Virus record (IMG/VR): IMGVR_UViG_3300046817_001031
Span: 1-21,722 of that record
Length of the DNA: 21,722 bases
From: a virus
Direction: 5' to 3' (one strand)
The notes under the pieces are model-generated. The model ran no database searches. It was not told the origin of the DNA and saw only the letters and a program-made list of their open reading frames with translations. Positions 1,153 through 19,343 of the stretch are shown piece after piece (the first letter of the stretch is position 1; the number at the start of each line of letters is the position of its first letter). Made by a program: the position numbers and the translations under genes.

Positions 1153-1737
1153 TTACTCGATGTGTTTCCAGGCACGGCGTTGCCTGATGATGTTAATCTG
1201 AGACACAGATACGCCATGCCGTTTCGCGAGGACTTTGGCAGTAGTCGGAGACGTGCGGATTTCTCGCACGATTGCCTCGGTGATTTTCGCGCGATGGTTT
1301 TCGGCTCCAGCCATGCCTCGTTTATGATCACGGCCTTTATTGATCATGTCATCGACGTTCGCCTGCTGGGTGCCGCAGAACAGGTGTCTGGGATTGACAC
1401 ACGATCTGTTGTCGCAATGATGTAAGCAGAACTGGCCTGTCGGTATTGGTCCGCGCTGTTGTTCATAGGCATAGCGGTGCGCGAGTATCGATTGTTTGGG
1501 CGTGGGATGAAACATCCCGTAGCCAGTGGAGATTTTTCCTCCTATCCACTCCCAGCAAGCTTTCGGCCCAGATCCTTTCTGGACAAAGGCTTTGAACCGC
1601 TCTTCCGCCGGCATTCCCTTATGATAGAGCCGCTCCTTATGAAGCGGATCACCATGCCGGCGCCACTGCGTGTAGTGCGGCGAGCAATAGCCGCGCCCTC
1701 GCGCTGTTCCAACGCATCCATCGATCGTGCAAATCAT
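1153..1737 (-). CDS. HNH homing endonuclease (HNH_3 type)
   Basis: A 194-aa free-standing HNH endonuclease. An N-terminal zinc-finger-like segment has C3, C8, C18 and H21. The HNH core follows: HRYAYE at 87-92, HHCDN at 106-110, CVNPRHL at 113-119 and N127 in the NVDDM stretch. The C-terminus, about 150-190, reads as a helix-turn-helix (AIVREIRTSPTTAKVLAKRH), as in many phage homing endonucleases. The start is ATG at 1737, because the typical MICTIDGC N-terminus and AGGAGGGGG six bases upstream point there; a longer in-frame start at 1803 lacks this. The gene lies directly after the coat gene on the same strand, so it is probably co-transcribed, but its Shine-Dalgarno is sequestered in a hairpin (separate entry). 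Such enzymes nick or cut homologous phage DNA to spread their own gene. Confidence 0.9.
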   Translation of the reverse strand: MICTIDGCVGTARGRGYCSPHYTQWRRHGDPLHKERLYHKGMPAEERFKAFVQKGSGPKACWEWIGGKISTGYGMFHPTPKQSILAHRYAYEQQRGPIPTGQFCLHHCDNRSCVNPRHLFCGTQQANVDDMINKGRDHKRGMAGAENHRAKITEAIVREIRTSPTTAKVLAKRHGVSVSQINIIRQRRAWKHIE

Positions 1738-1806: not shown

Positions 1807-3012
1807 CTAATTGGCTGCTAACCGAACTGCCAACTGGGGCCGCAATGCAACTGCTCCCCAAAGTACATCTATGCGGATCGGCATGGTATCGTCTGAAATA
1901 CTATACTGGCGTACCGCTCTCATACTAATTCCATCTTTTACGACACGCGAAGCCATGTCCACACCGCCGGGCATGACAAGATCTGCAGTGGCAAATGTAA
2001 AAGCGTCCGGACTATATGCGAGGCTCAACCCCGTCGCCGCGCTCGCCGTCCCCATGAACGTCAACCCCGCCGTCGCGTTCGCCACGGGAATGGCGACGTT
2101 CTGCTGCGGGCTGCCGACCACGGCATTGATGGCCGGCGCGATGGCCATGTTGCCGCCGCCGCCCGCGTAAGCGCCGGTCAGAACGAACTGCTGGAGCACA
2201 CCCGAGTTTGCTTTGGTTTCGGGGTGCACGCGGTAGACGCCGGCGATGGTGAACACGTCGCCCGCGTTGCCCGCGCCGGCTCCGGTGATCACGGCGAGGG
2301 TGGCGCCGGTGTTCTGGTTAAGCACGATCGCCGTCGTGTAAGCCGCGTTCTCGGCACCGCGCGTTTGCGTGGTCAGATGGGTGTTCTCAGCCCACTCGAA
2401 GCCGCCCGCGAGGCCCATGACGCCATCGGTGTATTGCCGGGCAATTTGCGTGCTCTGTTGAAACAGGCCCTTGAGGCTGTCCACCAGATCCACGTTGTCC
2501 TGCGTGTTGATGCGAAGCTGCCACTGTTTACTTTGCGGCGTCAGGTTATCGAGCAGCATCTTGCGGGCGACGAGGACGTTCTTGAACGATTGCGCGACCC
2601 CTGGCGTGCCGACCTGATTCCACACCGTCGGCCACATCATACCGACAAACGTGGCCTCGATCTGGGCGGCGAGAACCGCGATGGCGGGCTCGATATAACG
2701 GGCACTGAAATCATCGATGGACAGCGTGAGTTCAGCGGACGAGAACGAGAAGTCGACATGATACTGATTGGTGATCGGCAGGCTGACCTGAGTTTCCACC
2801 GTATTTTGCAACGACAACGCGGGCGTCGTGCTTACGGTGTATTGCACTGGCAGGCGGATGCGGAGGGTGGAGCCGATCTTGGCGCCGCTGTTCGCGAAGC
2901 TGTCATCGTATTGACGGTTCACCGATCCGATTATGTTGCACTTCTGGTGAAGGATCGCGAGGGCTTTCGCGGTGATCATGTTTATTGTTAACAAAGTGTT
3001 AGTGGCTGGCAT
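1807..3012 (-). CDS. Major capsid protein (P22 coat protein family)
   Basis: A 401-aa coat protein of the P22 gp5 (HK97-fold) family that assembles the procapsid shell around the scaffold. The order is typical: an N-terminal helix (MITAKALAILHQ), the segment on DDSFANSGAKIGSTLRIR, a middle region DRQ-like TQDNVDLVDSLKGLF, then the insertion-domain stretch with GDVFTIAGVYRV and LQQFVLTGAYAG, and a C-terminal part ending RPQLAVRLAAN. Start: ATG at 3012 (MPATNTLLTINMI) is preferred. The frame stays open upstream to 3099, but that part is Cys/Pro/Arg-rich and carries a leader hairpin. No strong Shine-Dalgarno is seen (a weak AGG lies about 14 bases upstream). The gene is separated from its scaffold by an oppositely oriented GIY-YIG gene and followed by an HNH gene. 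Confidence 0.93.
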   Translation of the reverse strand: MPATNTLLTINMITAKALAILHQKCNIIGSVNRQYDDSFANSGAKIGSTLRIRLPVQYTVSTTPALSLQNTVETQVSLPITNQYHVDFSFSSAELTLSIDDFSARYIEPAIAVLAAQIEATFVGMMWPTVWNQVGTPGVAQSFKNVLVARKMLLDNLTPQSKQWQLRINTQDNVDLVDSLKGLFQQSTQIARQYTDGVMGLAGGFEWAENTHLTTQTRGAENAAYTTAIVLNQNTGATLAVITGAGAGNAGDVFTIAGVYRVHPETKANSGVLQQFVLTGAYAGGGGNMAIAPAINAVVGSPQQNVAIPVANATAGLTFMGTASAATGLSLAYSPDAFTFATADLVMPGGVDMASRVVKDGISMRAVRQYSISDDTMPIRIDVLWGAVALRPQLAVRLAAN

Positions 3013-3228: not shown

Positions 3229-3891
3229 ATGAACACATATTATGTCTATGCGATCATCCATCGTCAACGCGAAGAAGCCTATGTCGGCTGCTCGGCCCGT
3301 ATCGAAGTCCGCTGGACGGAGCACAAACGACAATTGACGCTCAGTCAGCACTCCAGCCCACGCCTCCAGGCCGCATGGGACAAAGATGGTGAAGCTGCCT
3401 TCACGTTCACCGTTCTGGCTGTTCTTACCGACGTTCCCCACGCTTCCGCGAAACGGGCGGAATTAGAATGGATCAATGAGATTGGTTCGTATAACGAAGT
3501 CAAAGCCGATCCAGTGAACCAGAAATTCGTGCTTCCGGAGCCAATCCGCGCGCAGTTAGCGAAGCAAAATCGCGCCAGGGGAAAGACACCGGAGCAACGT
3601 GAAAACATGCGCCAGCACAGCCTGCGCCGATGGGCTGATCCTGAACTCCGCAAACCCATGTTGGCCGGAATACTTTCTGGCAACGGCTTCTACAAAGGCA
3701 TGCCATCCGTTCGATCGCCTGAACAAATCTCGGCCGGCGCGGAGAAGATGAAAGAGGTTTGGGCTGACCCGAAACGCAACGCCAAACTAAAAGCCCGTCA
3801 GGAATCACGCTGGAAAGACCCGGAGGCCAAGGCCCGACAGGCTGAGAAGATGCGGGCCTATCATGCGAGGAGACGGGCCGCACTGGATTAG
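3229..3891 (+). CDS. GIY-YIG homing endonuclease
   Basis: A 220-aa free-standing GIY-YIG nuclease. The catalytic N-domain shows VYAI at 6-9 (GIY), AYVGCS at 17-22 (YIG), R28 in RWTEHK, and the acidic motif ELEWINEIGSYN at about 78-89. The C-terminal half is basic and carries three spaced W(A/K)DP motifs at W135, W178 and W195, the kind of short repeats used for DNA contacts in phage homing enzymes. It is the only plus-strand gene inside the leftward structural operon. Its stop at 3889-3891 overlaps the convergent scaffold stop by a few bases, so it fills the scaffold-coat junction completely. It has no Shine-Dalgarno; see the candidate promoter. It probably spreads into genomes lacking the insert; the target is likely near the scaffold-coat junction (inference). 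Confidence 0.9.
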   Translation: MNTYYVYAIIHRQREEAYVGCSARIEVRWTEHKRQLTLSQHSSPRLQAAWDKDGEAAFTFTVLAVLTDVPHASAKRAELEWINEIGSYNEVKADPVNQKFVLPEPIRAQLAKQNRARGKTPEQRENMRQHSLRRWADPELRKPMLAGILSGNGFYKGMPSVRSPEQISAGAEKMKEVWADPKRNAKLKARQESRWKDPEAKARQAEKMRAYHARRRAALD

Positions 3892-4676: not shown

Positions 4677-4853
4677 TTACTCATCATTGCCGCCGCCAGG
4701 AATGATCACGAAGCGGCCACCCGGCGGGAAAAAGTCGGGGATATCGAAAGAGAAATCCTCACCAGGAACAGTTCGCGGCCGGGGATCGGGAACGGCGGGT
4801 CGCGGCGCGCCTCCGGGATCGGGAATGACCGGGTCGGTGTTTGTTTCGCTCAT
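4677..4853 (-). CDS. Small Pro/Gly-rich protein, MSET N-terminus
   Basis: A 58-aa protein of unknown function, Pro/Gly/Asp-rich (IPDPGGAPRPAVPDP, then DFSFDIPDFFPPGGRF). The start is ATG at 4853, not 4868, because it forms an ATGA overlap with the stop of the Lar-like gene. The first residues MSETNTD and the DNA just around the start (TGTTTCGCTCAT on the plus strand) match those of its two neighbours. It could be a disordered virion or assembly peptide; no function can be assigned. Confidence 0.6.
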   Translation of the reverse strand: MSETNTDPVIPDPGGAPRPAVPDPRPRTVPGEDFSFDIPDFFPPGGRFVIIPGGGNDE

Positions 4854-5128
4854 GATCGTTTGTTCCAAACGGCGACAGCTTCAGAAAACGTGGACGCGGG
4901 TGGCCCCTGAGCGCCACAGTGGCCGCAGGTGACGACCCAACTGGCTTCGTCTTCTTTCCCCTCGTTCAAGTCCCAGAAATTGCTCGGTTCAGCGCCGCAA
5001 AATGGGCACGCATCCATTTCATCCGCCACCTGTTCGGGAATGTAGGGATAGATGCTGACGCCACTCTCATGCGCGTTGTGGACATAGTTTCGCACAAGGG
5101 ATTCAATGTCGTCGGTTGTTTCGCTCAT
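4850..5128 (-). CDS. Lar-like zinc-ribbon protein (restriction alleviation family)
   Basis: A 92-aa protein. The C-terminal half has the Lar_restr_allev pattern: CPFCG at about 41-45, a V-x-C-GHCGA motif in the SWVVTCGHCGAQGP segment, and the terminal EAVAVWNKR. The four cysteines form a zinc ribbon. Known Lar proteins (Rac prophage) relieve type I restriction by stimulating host modification; many phage copies are untested. The N-terminal 40 aa (MSETTDDIESLVRNYV onward) lie outside the family domain. The gene is unusual in sitting inside the structural cassette between portal and scaffold instead of among early genes. It ends in an ATGA overlap with the next gene. Confidence 0.75.
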   Translation of the reverse strand: MSETTDDIESLVRNYVHNAHESGVSIYPYIPEQVADEMDACPFCGAEPSNFWDLNEGKEDEASWVVTCGHCGAQGPPASTFSEAVAVWNKRS

Positions 5129-5766: not shown

Positions 5767-5959
5767 CTGGGCCTCTCGACCGCCTTGGGTCCGGCTCCGC
5801 CAACCGACGATCCAACACCCCAGCCGCTACCAACAACCTGTGATATTCATACCTGGCCAACAGATATTCGGGTTCGTGATCCGGCAGGCGGCCAGAACAG
5901 GTATCCCGGCACTTCTGAAGCGCGGCCTCGAGCGCCGGGTCATCCCATCGTCGTGTCAC
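5756..5959 (-). CDS. Small charged protein downstream of portal
   Basis: A 67-aa Arg-rich protein, not recognised. The start is GTG at 5959, overlapping the portal stop as GTGA, typical of this phage's coupled genes. The centre (EPEYLLARYEYHRLLVAAGVL) is likely helical, and the tail is rich in Arg, Pro and Gly. It lies in a run of very small genes between portal and scaffold; a role in head assembly is only a positional guess. Confidence 0.6.
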   Translation of the reverse strand: MTRRWDDPALEAALQKCRDTCSGRLPDHEPEYLLARYEYHRLLVAAGVLDRRLAEPDPRRSRGPGGP

Positions 5960-8157
5960 GCGCCGCCCCCTGGAGCTGGTCCTGACGGCGCCTGACCGCT
6001 GCTCCCGTTCACCGGCACGGGCGGCGCCAGCGTGGCCTGTAGCTCGCTCTCGTCCGCCGCGTGCCGCTGGAGGACCGGGTGGATCTCGGTCTGAAGCATG
6101 TCGGACACCATCTGACGCACGATCACCTGGAGACTGAGCGGGTCGATCTGACCGACCGCCTTCAATCGATCCGTCTCCGCCTGATAGTCCTTGATCTCAA
6201 TCTCCGCGCTCTTGTCCTTGGCCTGCTCCTGGGCATGCACCAACTGGGCTTTTAGCGATGCGATCTCGGCGTCAGCCTTCTGAAGCATCCCTTGCGCCTG
6301 CTGCTGCATCTGTTGAGCCTGCTGGGTGACCGCCTGGACCTGAGGGTCGGGGCCGGCCTTGTATTGTGGCGGCAGGCCGCGTTTCAGACGGTCGGCCAGC
6401 TCATCCGCGCCGGGAAAATCACTGTTGGCGGCCCAGTAATCACCGACGATCTGAAACGCGGCCGGGTTTTGCTGCATGATCTGAGAGAACGCGTTCGCGG
6501 CCTCCTGGCGCTGCGTCCCATAAGCCGGGCCGACATCCGCCTCGACGTCGTAAGTCCCGACATTCGGGTTGAAGATGATCGCCGGGTCGGGCCGGTTCGG
6601 ATCTTCCTGCTGCGCCTGGGCATCAGCGGGTGAAACCGGCCCCGGCTGGCCGGTCTGAGGGTGCTGGCCAATATACTGATGGGCCTCGGGCGCGTCGGGC
6701 GCCACCATGACCTTGTTCTCGGTGCCGTCCTCGGCCAATGTCATCACCACGCGGCGCACATCGTATATTTTCGGGATCAAATCGATTAAAATGCGTCCGA
6801 TCTGACGAATGCCCTTGGCCTGATTGTCGATATAGTGGTACGTCGCCGTGTCGCCCTGGCGCTGGCGTTGCTGAATCGCGACACCACTGCGCTCGTTGCT
6901 CGGCATGCCCAGCTCGGCCTGATATTGTCCCGTCACCGACATCAGATCCTGCCGCGCGATGGTCATGCCCTGGATATAGGCCTGCGCCATCGTTGGGGGT
7001 TCAACACGGGTCGGCGGCGGGATCGGATTGCCCGCCTCGTCGATACCGTTATAAACCAGCACCGACCAGTTCTTAACGTTCGCCGTCGCCCACTGCTCCG
7101 TCCGGCCCTCGACCGCGTCGGCGCGGGCCAGATACGGCGTCTTGGTCTGCAACGCGACCTGTTCGACGGCGGCACTGGCCCAGTAGTTGTAAATCCGCTG
7201 GGCGTCGATCTGGGCGCGGGTGTGGCCCTTGCGGTCGAGTTGGTTCTCGATGACGGTTTCCTCACCAATGAACGGCACGATCGGGATGTATTTACCCAGC
7301 CACTGCTCACGATCGACGATCTTGTCGCCGGAGAGTTTGAACCACTCGATTGTCGGCGTCTCGACGGCACGGGTTTTAATGATCAACGGGGTCACCCGGT
7401 CACGCAACTCACCAGGGATCTCGCTGTCTCTGACGATGGTGCCATCACGCAATTGATGAATGGTGTCGCTATCGCTATCGCGACGCCAATATTCGGCGAT
7501 CCTGACGTGATCCTTATCGTTCCACCCATCGCTGTGCTCCAGCGTTGCCGGTGCGACGTTGTCCTCCTTCCCATATTCCTCCTCGTAACGATCGCGCGGG
7601 ATGTCCTCGAACACAAAGGCGAAGGTAGCGTCCGACTTATCGTATTGCCGCGCGTCGGGGTCCATGTAGACCGATCGAGGGTCCGGCACCCGCTCGATGA
7701 ACAGATCGAGGTCGAAACTGTTCTCGTCGACGTAGTCGGTTTTCACCCGCACGTAGCCGATGCCGCTCTCGACCTGATGATAAACAGCGGTGCTATAGGC
7801 ATCGATCGCCTTGGATACATACTCGATACGGCGAATGATACCGGAAAACACCTGGGCCGCCTCGTAGGACGCGCGGCCGCCGGTTGGGCTGACCTTGATC
7901 TGCGCCTTGTTCTGCCGCGCGTCGTTGATCACCTGCAGGTTGTGCTGACGCACCTGATTATAGGTCAGGCTGGGCCGGCTGCCGCGCTCGGACATGACAC
8001 TGGCGTCCCACTGCCAGCCGTTGCGGCTGTCGCCGTTGGCGAATTTGGTATCGAGCAGCGCCCGTTCGCGCCACGCGCTTTCCCAACCCACGCACCGTTC
8101 AAATCTTTCGCGGGCCTCCTTCAGGATGTCCTCGTCGCTGTCTTTAGCGCGTGACAT
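5956..8157 (-). CDS. Portal protein (P22-like)
   Basis: A 733-aa portal, close to the 725 aa of P22 gp1. Twelve copies form the DNA channel at one capsid vertex. Recognisable P22-family features include the N-terminal RERALLDTKFANGDSRNGW region, SRPSLTYNQVRQHNLQVIND, the segment VPDPRSVYMDPDARQYDKSDA, and the motif TGQYQAELGMPSNERSGVAI. The C-terminal region (about 607-670) is a Gln/Ala-rich coiled coil (barrel-like extension), followed by a Pro/Gly-rich tail. The start is ATG at 8157 with AAGGCGAG just upstream; the 29 Arg-rich residues available further upstream overlap the previous gene and are rejected. It is followed by a GTGA-coupled small gene. Confidence 0.93.
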   Translation of the reverse strand: MSRAKDSDEDILKEARERFERCVGWESAWRERALLDTKFANGDSRNGWQWDASVMSERGSRPSLTYNQVRQHNLQVINDARQNKAQIKVSPTGGRASYEAAQVFSGIIRRIEYVSKAIDAYSTAVYHQVESGIGYVRVKTDYVDENSFDLDLFIERVPDPRSVYMDPDARQYDKSDATFAFVFEDIPRDRYEEEYGKEDNVAPATLEHSDGWNDKDHVRIAEYWRRDSDSDTIHQLRDGTIVRDSEIPGELRDRVTPLIIKTRAVETPTIEWFKLSGDKIVDREQWLGKYIPIVPFIGEETVIENQLDRKGHTRAQIDAQRIYNYWASAAVEQVALQTKTPYLARADAVEGRTEQWATANVKNWSVLVYNGIDEAGNPIPPPTRVEPPTMAQAYIQGMTIARQDLMSVTGQYQAELGMPSNERSGVAIQQRQRQGDTATYHYIDNQAKGIRQIGRILIDLIPKIYDVRRVVMTLAEDGTENKVMVAPDAPEAHQYIGQHPQTGQPGPVSPADAQAQQEDPNRPDPAIIFNPNVGTYDVEADVGPAYGTQRQEAANAFSQIMQQNPAAFQIVGDYWAANSDFPGADELADRLKRGLPPQYKAGPDPQVQAVTQQAQQMQQQAQGMLQKADAEIASLKAQLVHAQEQAKDKSAEIEIKDYQAETDRLKAVGQIDPLSLQVIVRQMVSDMLQTEIHPVLQRHAADESELQATLAPPVPVNGSSGQAPSGPAPGGGA

Positions 8158-11912: not shown

Positions 11913-13235
11913 TCAAACCGCCATCCAGCCGGTGCCGGCCCCCGCGTTGATCCGCTCGATGAGATCACGCGCGGCGGGGAACTGGCGGGTGACGATGGCG
12001 TCGTCGGTCGGGGTCGCCTCGCGCACGCCGAGGGCGAGGTAGCGGGCGGCGTCGGCGCCGTGGGACGCATGATCATGCACCGGGGAGGAGCGCCACGCCT
12101 GGGCGCTCTCGTTCCACTCGCGTTTATAATGCCGCAACGCGTGGATGCCTTTTTGAGTCTTTTCGGCATCGAACCAACATTTCGGGAGGACCATCCGCAC
12201 CGCGTTGACGCCGTCGGCCACCGCGTGCTGACGGACCACGCGGGTGGGGCGAACGCCGAGGCCATGCAGCGTCTCGAGACGGGATTTGCCGCTGCCGAGT
12301 TCACGCGCCTGGACATCGTGCGGCAGGATGTGGCGTTCATAAACGTATGGTTTCGCACGAAGCAGGCGGACGTAATGATCGAGACCGGCGCCGCTGTCCT
12401 CGATGTAATCAATCAGCCGCCACTCGCCGCCTTTCGAGATCTGCAGAAACCAGATCGCGGTGCTGTCGTCGATACCAAGATCCCAGGCGGTCCAGACCTT
12501 GAGGATCGGGTCGTGCGGCACATTCGTCACGCGGCCGTCACGGTCGGCGGCGTCCATGAGGCGGCCGTAATAGGAGCCGCTGTTGGGCGCCGCGAACGAG
12601 CAGTTCATCTCCTGATCGAACTCTTCCTCGGTCATTTCGGCCTTGAGGCGATCGATCGCCTCGGGCGGCAGCGCGCCGGTGGCGGCGTGGTCGAGCAGAT
12701 AGACCGAGTGGCCCGGGGTGGTCCTGGCCCGGTCGTAGGCGGCCCGCAGCAGCCCATTACCTTTCGGCGTGCCGGATCTGACGAGGGTACCGCCCCGGTC
12801 GGCCAGCATCGGCTCGATCACCAAAGGGACGAGGGAGGGCGGCGTGTCATCGAACTCGTCGACCACGCACAAATCCGCGCCGCCGCCACGCCAGCTATCG
12901 GGGTTGTCAGCGCCACCGCACTGGAACACCGAGTCGTTGGGAAACCGCACCGACAACTCGCCGCGCCGGATCACCGCGCCGGGGATCGCCTCGGCGGCCG
13001 CCGTCAGCTCGTCCCACAGGCCGGTGCGCTGCCACATGACGCCGTAGGGCAGGATGTGCACGACGCGGGCGCCTCGGGTGGTGACGGCGCGCCGGATGCC
13101 CATCCACATCAGCGCGGTGCTCTTGCCGGCGCGCCGGTGCACGACGGCAACGATGCGCTTCGCGCGGTCACTCAGCAGCGCCTTTTGCCAGGGGCGCGGC
13201 GCGAACGGGACGGTGATATTCTTACGTTCTGTCAT
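11913..13235 (-). CDS. terL: Terminase large subunit
   Basis: 440 aa, ATPase plus nuclease motor for DNA packaging. Walker A HRRAGKST at 33-40, Walker B DLCVVDEFD at 121-129 with catalytic E127, coupling motif SGTPKGN at 154-160. The RNase H-like nuclease domain carries acidic residues at D252 (WDLGIDDS), D307 (LPHDVQA) and D395 (HGADAARYL). Length and motifs fit the Terminase_6 group. The ATG at 13235 lacks a purine-rich Shine-Dalgarno: the bases upstream are part of a 9-bp-period repeat, so initiation may depend on coupling from an upstream frame or on an unusual signal. The frame is open upstream but has no ATG, GTG or TTG. Confidence 0.95.
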   Translation of the reverse strand: MTERKNITVPFAPRPWQKALLSDRAKRIVAVVHRRAGKSTALMWMGIRRAVTTRGARVVHILPYGVMWQRTGLWDELTAAAEAIPGAVIRRGELSVRFPNDSVFQCGGADNPDSWRGGGADLCVVDEFDDTPPSLVPLVIEPMLADRGGTLVRSGTPKGNGLLRAAYDRARTTPGHSVYLLDHAATGALPPEAIDRLKAEMTEEEFDQEMNCSFAAPNSGSYYGRLMDAADRDGRVTNVPHDPILKVWTAWDLGIDDSTAIWFLQISKGGEWRLIDYIEDSGAGLDHYVRLLRAKPYVYERHILPHDVQARELGSGKSRLETLHGLGVRPTRVVRQHAVADGVNAVRMVLPKCWFDAEKTQKGIHALRHYKREWNESAQAWRSSPVHDHASHGADAARYLALGVREATPTDDAIVTRQFPAARDLIERINAGAGTGWMAV

Positions 13236-13395: not shown

Positions 13396-13600
13396 TTTGG
13401 GGGTGGAATGTGGTGGTTATCAAATCGGAATGATTGATTTGGGGGAGGAATGTGGGTGGAGGAGGGGGACGGCTGCCCTGGCGCGAGGCCGAGTGCCCAT
13501 GCCCCCCGGGGGGTGCCGGCCGGGTGGCCGGCGCCATGCCTGGCGACACCACCGGGGGTACCTTCATCACCAGACCTGGGGGTAGAATTGGGGGTAGAGT
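13396..13600. other. Non-coding G-rich region with direct repeats and palindromes, terS-terL gap
   Basis: This is most of the 443-bp gap between terS and terL. It holds a direct repeat beginning TTTGGGGG, then T or A, then GGAATGTGG (13396-13416 and 13438-13459), a 12-bp palindrome CCCCCCGGGGGG (13502-13513), an inverted repeat GCCGGCC/GGCCGGC with a GGGT loop (13515-13532), and three GGGGGTA boxes (13554, 13578, 13590). A minus-strand TTG-start ORF across 13232-13633 is Pro-rich and repeat-driven, so I do not call it. A packaging recognition site or late regulatory element is possible; 13601-13678 is AT-rich with nothing recognised. Confidence 0.5.
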
Positions 13601-13678: not shown

Positions 13679-14092
13679 TTACCGACGCCTGAAAACCCGG
13701 TCCTCGTTTGAATATGGCTCGAAAACCAATTCTTTATCATCGTTTTCAAACGATGCAGCCATATCCTCGACTTTTTGTTCTATCTGGCGAACGACCTCAC
13801 TCTCGATTGTCGGTGGCGATGGCGCCTGCTCCGCCCAGCGAAAGTCGATCGCCAGCCCCTCACCATCCTTGCCGGTGACCTGCAGCGGCAGGATGCGGCC
13901 CAGCAGCCCCATGAAGGCCACGGGGCAGTCAAGTGCCCGTGCCGCAAGGTATTTTCGGCCCCCAACATCATTCAACGCACCAACGACCATCGCCTTGATG
14001 TCGGCCGTTTCACGGTTAAGCGAGCCCTTTGGGCGACCACGGCCGCGCTTAACGCCGTCTGGAACAGGGTTGAGATTGACGTGAGCCGACAT
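13679..14092 (-). CDS. Putative terminase small subunit / DUF5681-like
   Basis: 137 aa from ATG at 14092 (a GTG at 14095 adds one residue). The N-terminus holds a basic AT-hook-like GRGRPKGSLNRETADIKAMV segment, then a helical region (LAARALDCPVAFMGLLGRIL followed by PLQVTG), then an acidic tail ending DRVFRRR. This layout recurs in proteins encoded just before terL in P22-like phages of alphaproteobacteria and fits a DNA-recognising small terminase; the family itself is weakly defined. The Shine-Dalgarno is weak (GGAAA, about 7 bases upstream). A candidate promoter lies immediately upstream. Confidence 0.6.
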   Translation of the reverse strand: MSAHVNLNPVPDGVKRGRGRPKGSLNRETADIKAMVVGALNDVGGRKYLAARALDCPVAFMGLLGRILPLQVTGKDGEGLAIDFRWAEQAPSPPTIESEVVRQIEQKVEDMAASFENDDKELVFEPYSNEDRVFRRR

Positions 14093-14105: not shown

Positions 14106-14133
14106 ATTTAATTAAGCGCAAATATGTGGTCAA
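14106..14133 (-). promoter_or_regulatory. Candidate promoter before the small terminase gene
   Basis: On the minus strand TTGACC (14133-14128) is followed after 16 bp by TTAAAT (14111-14106), in an AT-rich island unlike the surroundings. It would drive the terminase/structural genes and overlaps the last codon and stop of the NusG-like gene. Consensus match is moderate. Confidence 0.3.
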
Positions 14134-14714
14134 TGATAACGTCTCAAAACCAAGCACTTGACCTTCACATTCACATCCCTGAGTTCACCGAACATCAGAA
14201 CTTGCACGCTACAGTTGTCTCCATCGACCGATCGCACAACCGCGTCAATCCCATCGAGCGGGGAGCCGTTGCCGAGCCCGCACGCCGTCCCTGGCGGCCA
14301 GACACTCCCCGCCAACGGCGGGGCGCGGCGCGCCCCCTCCGTCGCCTGGAGCGCCTCCACGGCGCCGCGCGGCACGCGGTTGGGACGATCACCCGCCATG
14401 CAGAGCTTACGCACCCCGCCGACGTAACGGGCGGCGACCCAGCCCTGCCCCGGCTCGAGGCCGATGAACACGTAAGACCGGAACAACGGCCGGTGCGTGA
14501 GCCGGGGTGGAGCGCCCGTCAACACGGCATGGGTAGGGAAATACGGGACGTATCCGGCGCGTCCGAGATTATCGGCGGCCCACGCCTCACGATTGGGATG
14601 GGTGTGCGCCACCGCCCAGGTGAGGGAAGGCGCGGCATCGCGTCCGCAGTCCGGCGAAAGGAGGGCCTCGGCGTCCACACCCGCCTGTATTGCCCCCTCT
14701 TCGATCCACGTCAA
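14130..14714 (-). CDS. NusG/RfaH-like transcription antitermination protein
   Basis: 194 aa from TTG at 14714 (GGAG nine bases upstream); a GTG twelve codons later is the alternative. The NGN domain covers about 32-123: WAVAHTHPNREAWAADNL, then GYVPYFPTHAV, the hallmark PLFRSYVFIGL, and VAARYVGGVRKL. After a short linker a KOW-like domain covers about 138-188 (GTACGLGNGSPLDGIDAVV, then VLMFGELRDVNV). NusG paralogues bind the RNA polymerase clamp and suppress pausing and termination; specialised ones such as RfaH are recruited to particular operons. Here the gene is the first of the terminase/structural series, which suggests it supports transcription of the long late operon. It is preceded by 23-bp direct repeats. 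Confidence 0.85.
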   Translation of the reverse strand: MTWIEEGAIQAGVDAEALLSPDCGRDAAPSLTWAVAHTHPNREAWAADNLGRAGYVPYFPTHAVLTGAPPRLTHRPLFRSYVFIGLEPGQGWVAARYVGGVRKLCMAGDRPNRVPRGAVEALQATEGARRAPPLAGSVWPPGTACGLGNGSPLDGIDAVVRSVDGDNCSVQVLMFGELRDVNVKVKCLVLRRYH

Positions 14715-14720
14715 GCTCTA

Positions 14721-14774
14721 CCGCTCCACGCAATGCTCCACGCCAGACCCGCCGCTCCACGCAATGCTCCACGC
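14721..14774. repeat. Two perfect 23-bp direct repeats in the NusG-like leader
   Basis: Copies at 14721-14743 and 14752-14774 are identical. Each contains two GTGGAGC boxes (minus strand) 14 bp apart, so four boxes lie between the resolvase stop (14781) and the NusG-like start (14714). The last box supplies the GGAG of the probable Shine-Dalgarno. The sequence GCGGTAG (14724-14718), identical to the core of the enterobacterial ops element, abuts the array. Confidence 0.85.
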
Positions 14775-14780
14775 GGTTGC

Positions 14781-15215
14781 TCATCCGTTCCCGCACAGCA
14801 CCGTTCGCCAACCCCACCATGCCAGCAGGATGGCGTCCGCCTCGTCATGCCGTAGCGCCCGCGTCGGCTCGCCGATCACCTTTCGCGCCATGGCGACACC
14901 GTCCTGCTTGCTCGTCAGCCCGAACGCGCCGCGCCAGACCGCCGGCTCCACGCGATACGCCGACTGCCCGGTCGCCTCCAGCGCGCCAGTCACCACCCCG
15001 ACGCTCTCACCCAAACTGAACGCCGAGGCCACTCCCATCTGAGGGCTGGCGCGCTGCGCCTCCATCACGACGAGATCCGCGCCTCTCGCCGCGAGCGCCA
15101 CCTCGGCCGTGACATCCCACAGCCACGACAGCCGGGCCGTGCCTGTTTCAGGGTTCACACGCAGCAGCGCCACCGCTCCGTGCAGCCCTGGATCAATCCC
15201 CAAAATCGTTGCCAT
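14781..15215 (-). CDS. RuvC-like Holliday junction resolvase
   Basis: 144 aa, RNase H-fold junction endonuclease. The four acidic residues of the family are visible: D8 in LGIDPG, E52 in VVMEAQ, and D124 and D127 in RHDEADAILLAWW. It is slightly shorter than cellular RuvC (about 170 aa), as usual for phage members. Such enzymes resolve branched replicating DNA before packaging, which fits its place between the primase-helicase and the terminase genes. ATG at 15215 has an excellent AAGGAGC Shine-Dalgarno six bases upstream. Confidence 0.9.
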   Translation of the reverse strand: MATILGIDPGLHGAVALLRVNPETGTARLSWLWDVTAEVALAARGADLVVMEAQRASPQMGVASAFSLGESVGVVTGALEATGQSAYRVEPAVWRGAFGLTSKQDGVAMARKVIGEPTRALRHDEADAILLAWWGWRTVLCGNG

Positions 15216-18933: not shown

Positions 18934-19151
18934 TAACCGCTGCTCCCCGGGTCACCCTGTTGGTCCATGACCCTGCACTGGTCGCATGGATCGCACAACA
19001 CAAGAACAACACACTACAGGCTGTAATCCCGCACGCATTGCACGGTTCCGCACATAGGTCGGTTTCAGTATATCCCCCTGATTGCACTGGTTGCATTCTT
19101 CTCGGCCCAGGCCGGGAGCGCCGCGCCGTGCCGCACGATGCCGCCGAGACG
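18934..19151. promoter_or_regulatory. Divergent control region between the two operons
   Basis: About 218 bp without a gene, from which leftward and rightward transcription must start. It contains two copies of a 14-mer, TGCACTGGT(C/T)GCAT (18974-18987 and 19083-19096), a partial third (TGCACGGTTCCGCA, near 19039), and an 11-bp palindrome TACAGGCTGTA (19015-19025) between them. These look like operators for a regulator such as the adjacent HTH protein. I could not identify convincing -35/-10 pairs. Confidence 0.55.
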
Positions 19152-19343
19152 ATGACCGTTCGCGAGGCCGCCCGCGCTTTGGGGCTGCCGCTTCGCACGA
19201 CCTATCAATACTGTGAGACGGGCGCGCTGCCGCACATCCGCATCAGCCGGCGCATCCTGATCCTGCGCGAAACCGTGGACGGCATGGTCGCCGCCGGCCG
19301 CGCCCGGCAGCCGGAACTGGCGCTGGACGACGCGCGGTGGTGA
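19152..19343 (+). CDS. Small HTH (excisionase/MerR-like) DNA-binding protein
   Basis: 63 aa. Residues 1-50 form the helix-turn-helix plus wing typical of excisionase-family proteins: TVREAARALGLPLRTTYQYC, ETGALPHIRI, then RRILILRETVDGMV. It is the first gene of the rightward operon, next to a control region with repeated 14-mers, so a regulatory role (early repressor or activator) is likely; excision is less likely because no intact integrase is in view. ATG at 19152 is preferred because the reading frame upstream crosses the control region. It ends in a GTGA overlap with the helicase. Confidence 0.75.
   Translation: MTVREAARALGLPLRTTYQYCETGALPHIRISRRILILRETVDGMVAAGRARQPELALDDARW

Follow-up and report, generated by a model that had tools for sequence, protein, structure and literature searches.

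What is a protein of the NusG/RfaH type doing directly in front of the terminase genes of a phage? N, Q, put RNA and phage-encoded polymerases are all in known use among phages, and long operons on chromosomes and plasmids are known to be driven by specialised NusG proteins. The question is raised by a 21.7-kb IMG/VR viral contig (IMGVR_UViG_3300046817_001031, positions 1-21,722), which is called the window here. A preliminary description had placed a NusG/RfaH paralogue, denoted NusGL in what follows, at the head of its late operon.

Extent and position of the NusGL gene

The open reading frame first described (14130-14714, minus strand) is present and has 194 codons. Translation probably does not begin at its TTG at 14714; the most likely coding extent is 14130-14678 (minus strand), with GTG 14678 as start. 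Six close relatives align to the window without gaps just upstream of this GTG, and both the GTG and the stretch that follows it are conserved. The aligned leader of the relative L105 reads TTG ACC ATC GGT GAA TAA; with this in-frame TAA between the aligned TTG and the GTG, TTG cannot be the start in L105. A start at GTG 14678 gives a NusGL protein of ~182 residues. The hexamer TTGACG (14709-14714, minus strand) may belong to a promoter, as TTGAC is kept at the same spacing, 36 nt 5' of the GTG, in the six close relatives and may be a −35 element. It was not among the hits of a promoter scan in which the second hexamer has to be near consensus.

Upstream of NusGL by 66 nt lies a codirectional gene for a RuvC-like Holliday junction resolvase (14781-15215, minus strand; PHROG 1770, 5e-15), and 34 nt downstream a gene (13679-14092, minus strand) that is called TerS by position, its matches PHROG 11043 and 15261 being families of unknown function. 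The same strand then carries the large terminase subunit TerL (11913-13235, minus strand; PHROG 2, 3e-26), a P22-like portal protein (5956-8157, minus strand; PF16510, 1e-167), a scaffold protein and a P22-like coat protein (1807-2979, minus strand; Pfam and PHROG matches) up to the contig end. The statement that NusGL precedes the terminase and about 14 kb of structural genes is therefore right for what the contig holds. With a codirectional RuvC-like gene on its 5' side and TerS 34 nt beyond its 3' end, NusGL of the window is situated at the early/late junction.

Several further genes were noted on the contig. An HNH endonuclease gene (1153-1614, minus strand; PHROG 1872, 5e-27) lies inside the structural operon, and a GIY-YIG homing-endonuclease-like gene (3229-3891, plus strand; PHROG 314, 2e-12) is inserted in opposite orientation between the scaffold and coat genes. 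A small protein encoded inside the late operon (4850-5128, minus strand) has a Lar-like restriction alleviation match (PHROG 599, 3e-10). An excisionase-like small gene (19128-19343, plus strand; PHROG 66, 1.5e-5) hints at a temperate phage.

The lone NusGL sequence finds no match in the PDB (phmmer), in 50,697 phage records (single-sequence tblastn) or in a scan of viral contigs, and relatives were therefore gathered via terminase and portal. Among the loci so gathered, phmmer recovers dozens of NusGL homologues, down to E 1e-74, and an iterated profile yields 55 NusGL ORFs in the first locus set and 78 in all, the latter total including some contigs fetched twice. A consensus query returns from the phage records distant NusGs only, some of them from bacterial contigs filed as phages; given these results for the lone and consensus queries, no cultured phage with a close NusGL copy was found.

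The survey of related phages that the preliminary description had proposed finds the position conserved. Forty-three of 45 viral loci whose TerL is at least 58% identical and whose sequence extends more than 5 kb upstream (a count that includes a few contigs fetched twice) carry NusGL before TerL, and in the same-terminase-type relatives L166 and L174 a copy was undetected. In every carrying locus the gene is on the TerL strand and upstream of TerL, never on the opposite strand, at a distance of 243-6996 nt (median 1505). It is also present in loci of the same portal/coat group with a different TerL (36-42% identical). Where TerS is recognisable it is found downstream of NusGL, often overlapping or within 60 nt.

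On the upstream side the gene in most loci is codirectional, often with a 4-14 nt overlap, and in 11 loci it is divergent. In L058 and L122 the order is a strong hairpin and T-run intrinsic terminator, TTGACC, NusGL, the gene in the TerS position and TerL. As a terminator or a divergent gene precedes it in some relatives, NusGL starts the operon there; the description of NusGL as heading the late operon holds for these relatives, and in the window, with its codirectional RuvC-like gene 5', NusGL is at the early/late junction. The slot between replication genes and late operon is that of lambda Q and P22 gene 23.

Fold and residues of NusGL

NusGL matches the Pfam NusG family (PF02357; 32.9 bits, cut-off 22.2, E 9.3e-8) and, over residues 28-185, the 'transcription antiterminator' family PHROG 6386 (E 2e-9); this is the only PHROG matched, and no Q-family homology was found. 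Uncultured-Caudovirales proteins named RfaH/NusG (Foldseek 7e-10) are, like PHROG 6386, phage proteins of the NusG type, but the identity of these proteins to NusGL is ~20%, their names are annotations, and no account of their context or function was found in the literature. NusGL scores 31.7 bits with the NCBIfam RfaH model (equivalog), far under the 144.5 cut-off, and is likewise far under the cut-off of the UpxY model; the model for housekeeping NusG leaves the window protein unmatched. The Pfam match comes from hmmscan with the protein; a PF02357 search of the contig record itself passed over the gene, presumably on account of a loose first filter. A family profile (A1) was made from 48 NusGL sequences, all of which match PF02357 (E 0.01 or better) and the RfaH model, with weak matches to the LoaP and UpxY models among members. 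LoaP and UpxY are specialised NusG paralogues too, with other hosts and targets. Profile A1 matches NusG/RfaH structures across both domains (E 5e-20).

Structure prediction, which had been suggested as a check, returns a two-domain fold of the NusG type (AlphaFold, pLDDT 84.6). The NGN domain (residues 33-124 of the 194-aa ORF; 14343-14618, minus strand) is predicted to be closest to the RfaH NGN (Z 13.5, 1.9 Å, 98 residues), with Y81 and F83 as clamp-helix contacts; the segment PLFRSYVFIGL, by which an NGN domain had first been recognised, comprises residues 76-86 and is the clamp-binding strand. The C-terminal domain (residues 142-191; 14142-14291, minus strand) is a predicted β-barrel (pLDDT ~90) that matches KOW domains, and the A1 alignment runs through the NusG KOW, in agreement with the KOW-like domain proposed earlier. 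The α-helical autoinhibitory C-terminus is a trait of RfaH; in NusGL the β form is predicted, by a predictor that is blind to a possible second fold. PF02357, PHROG 6386, profile and fold all agree on the NusG/RfaH paralogue identity, and NusGL is very likely, close to certainly, a specialised NusG paralogue (NusG-SP).

The 48 members were aligned with E. coli RfaH and NusG. The clamp-binding residues, on which the proposed function had been said to depend, are present: the equivalent of RfaH Y54 (Y81 in the window) is Tyr in 48/48 and that of F56 (F83) is Phe in 45/48. The equivalents of W4 (Trp in 47/48) and F51 (Phe in 46/48) are conserved as well, and the L96 position is kept in 40 members. 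Y54 and F56 are important for RfaH function and RNAP binding, F56 being typical of RfaH-like proteins where NusG has Leu (PMC2871177), and F56 lets RfaH withstand displacement by NusG (PMC7593976). The RfaH-type Phe of NusGL is consistent with strong RNAP binding.

NusGL thus has in common with E. coli RfaH the NGN fold, both clamp contacts and, as proposed here, an operon-specific role, but differs from it in other respects. The ops-DNA contacts K10, R16, H20 and R73 are replaced by H, W, N and G in the window and are unconserved across the 48 members; the HTT gate-loop motif (65-67) is G-W-V in the window, the T66 position being Trp in 47/48, as in NusG; and both residues of the interdomain pair E48-R138 are missing. 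Furthermore, NusGL is phage-encoded and adjoins its presumed target. As the ops, HTT and autoinhibition residues are not kept, NusGL is an RfaH-like specialised NusG paralogue and not RfaH. In the KOW loop the NusG sequence I-F-G-R becomes (M/L)-(F/L)-G-(E/other), with F or L at position 175 in 48/48 and G176 in 44/48. The pattern as a whole points to an RfaH-like RNAP anchor combined with a NusG-like gate-loop region and KOW, and to a DNA specificity that is different or absent. With dN/dS values of 0.18-0.53 (11 pairs), NusGL is under purifying selection.

The KOW loop bears on a reading in which NusGL is mainly a translation helper that tethers ribosomes (via S10) to polymerase on late mRNA, any effect on termination being secondary. 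RfaH acts partly by such tethering (PMC7819879), and the hydrophobic-Gly loop kept in NusGL lies in the region known to bind S10; in most members, however, the equivalent of NusG R167 is Glu or another residue, and we regard this reading as quite improbable.

DNA elements around NusGL

In the window TerS and TerL are separated by 443 nt, and this gap contains a conserved element, CACCCCCCGGGGGGCATGGGCACT (13491-13514, minus strand), made up of a GC-rich palindrome, CCCCCCGGGGGG, followed by CATGGGCACT. Several diverged relatives have it as well, 100-180 nt downstream of TerS. It also occurs near TerS-like genes of unrelated phages (L190, where it is beside an HNH gene, and L192) and in L166, which is without NusGL, and it is missing from many NusGL loci; on these grounds it was rejected as a recruitment site for NusGL. 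By its distribution the element is probably a cos-like or other packaging site.

Right after this element and before TerL comes the most C-rich/G-poor stretch of 90 nt of the contig (13386-13475, minus strand; 48% C and 7% G on the transcribed strand, in the top 0.04% of windows). The trend is seen also in L003 and L126 and is not seen in L128 or L166. The base composition would be compatible with a rut-like Rho entry site.

No DNA element turned up that all NusGL loci share. The k-mers shared around the gene were discarded as elements, being start-codon context (ATG CTT GAC GC), part of the TerS coding region or a leader particular to one close group. Directly 5' of NusGL the window has four copies of GCGTGGAGC (14723-14774), with a fifth at 14945-14953. 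No relative has three or more copies, RNA folding of the repeats is unremarkable (z −0.46) and no Rfam match was obtained.

NusGL could alternatively be a host takeover factor that binds host RNAP globally and displaces NusG, such that host genes lose Rho-dependent termination and transcription-translation coupling and the late operon is not a specific target. The strong clamp-binding signature, including the RfaH-type F56, would suit this, and the finding of neither a recruitment site nor autoinhibition features would fit unspecific action. As a rule host-takeover genes are early genes without a set position, whereas NusGL keeps its place at the border of the late operon in phages whose terminases differ; we judge a takeover factor unlikely.

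Relatives in host genomes and the proposed role

Acetobacteraceae are the best host lead, since TerL relatives are found in two MAG contigs of that family; no NusGL copy was seen in those two contigs. In a profile search of 200 Acetobacteraceae genomes most gave a single housekeeping NusG, and there were seven stronger matches in addition. Four of the seven (L232, L233, L236 and L237) are distant NusGLs directly before a terminase in prophage-like regions. The terminase is GpA-type in L232, L233 and L237, the last also having a lambda-type portal, and of the TerL_ATPase/TerL_nuclease kind, with an HNH gene, in L236. The gene coordinates in L232 and L233 are those of the profile search, as simple ORF picking took an overlapping opposite ORF. 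Of the other three, the contigs of L234 and L235 are short, and L238 shows no evident phage character. In Acetobacter phage phiAX1, which has the closest portal with a known acetic-acid host, NusGL was undetected in the stretch examined. A Microcystis phage carries an annotated nusG.

At the level of the class, 89 of 385 alphaproteobacterial genomes have a NusGL relative at 1e-20 or better. The neighbours of 40 such chromosomal paralogues are aminotransferases, epimerases, asparagine synthases and polysaccharide genes, and terminase is absent among the 25 most frequent neighbour families. Many alphaproteobacterial RfaH-like NusG paralogues (L269-L308) head sugar/polysaccharide or asparagine-synthase clusters. 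These chromosomal proteins are the closest non-phage sequences to NusGL and likewise stand before long operons, but they are not in phages and belong to a separate group: in a tree the phage NusGL proteins fall together, RfaH joins the chromosomal paralogues in a second cluster, and housekeeping Acetobacteraceae NusG stands apart as a group of its own at the end of a long branch (SH-aLRT 100, length 1.46). The tree comes from a quick search and has long branches, and its fine order is unsure. This distance of the housekeeping proteins tells against NusGL being a recently captured host NusG without a phage-specific role; fold and domain order are the same as in NusG, but NusGL of the window also gets a score from the RfaH model and none from the NusG model, and its position is fixed. 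Such a capture is disfavoured and seems to us extremely improbable.

Position and residues together make it likely that NusGL is a phage-borne RfaH-like NusG paralogue acting as a late-operon processivity (antitermination) factor. Its mRNA would be an early or middle transcript, or would start at a promoter of its own in loci with a divergent gene or a terminator upstream. The NGN domain would lock onto the β' clamp helices of host RNA polymerase, and NusGL would stay with the polymerase across the TerS, TerL, portal, scaffold, coat and tail genes and curb pausing as well as termination, the Rho-dependent kind probably included. The KOW domain would act in place of the host NusG KOW, possibly still contacting ribosomal protein S10. 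Displacement of host NusG or Rho, as first suggested, is plausible. NusGL would functionally replace lambda Q or P22 gp23, with which it has the genomic slot and presumed job in common but no detected sequence relation. Q binds DNA and RNAP by folds other than the NusG type.

The nearest non-phage kin argue for the late-operon role, as they precede polysaccharide/sugar operons, the type of operon on which specialised NusGs are known to act (PMC7593976). Four points argue against it. There is no common recruitment element, and the CACCCCCCGGGGGGCATGGGCACT element occurs without NusGL; NusGL, TerS and TerL overlap or abut in many relatives, leaving no leader room for a classical terminator; nothing in the predicted KOW points to autoinhibition of the RfaH type, so that selective loading on the phage operon is unaccounted for; and L166 and L174 have the same terminase type without a detectable NusGL. 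A wider proposal is possible but tentative: that a large uncultured phage group (host lead Acetobacteraceae), together with prophages with unrelated terminases, has swapped Q-type proteins for its own NusG paralogue as late-gene switch, which would outcompete host NusG on the phage operon and override a Rho checkpoint in the TerS-TerL leader, where the C-rich, rut-like 90 nt lie.

A close parallel to the late-operon role proposed for NusGL is GafZ of the Caulobacter gene transfer agent (GTA), which antiterminates a 14-kb phage-like structural cluster, also in an alphaproteobacterium; that cluster needs antitermination after its first gene (PMC11150451). GafZ, however, works with host NusA, NusG and NusE, whereas here the phage brings a NusG-type protein. 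Reviews and a study of RfaH evolution treat chromosomal and plasmid NusG paralogues (PMC7819879, PMC6391919, PMC7593976), and rfaH-like genes on prophages are mentioned in a single sentence (PMC7593976). Phage NusG/RfaH-like proteins are already named in databases (PHROG 6386); for a NusG paralogue conserved at the late-operon position no description, and no paper on such a role, was found in the openly accessible literature.

With a NusG paralogue fixed in the place of Q in a group of phages, the fields of NusG paralogues and phage antitermination would meet. The NusGL phages would give a natural system for studying NusG paralogue loading that does not rely on an ops site, and would offer a test of late-transcription takeover via the host NusG site on RNA polymerase.
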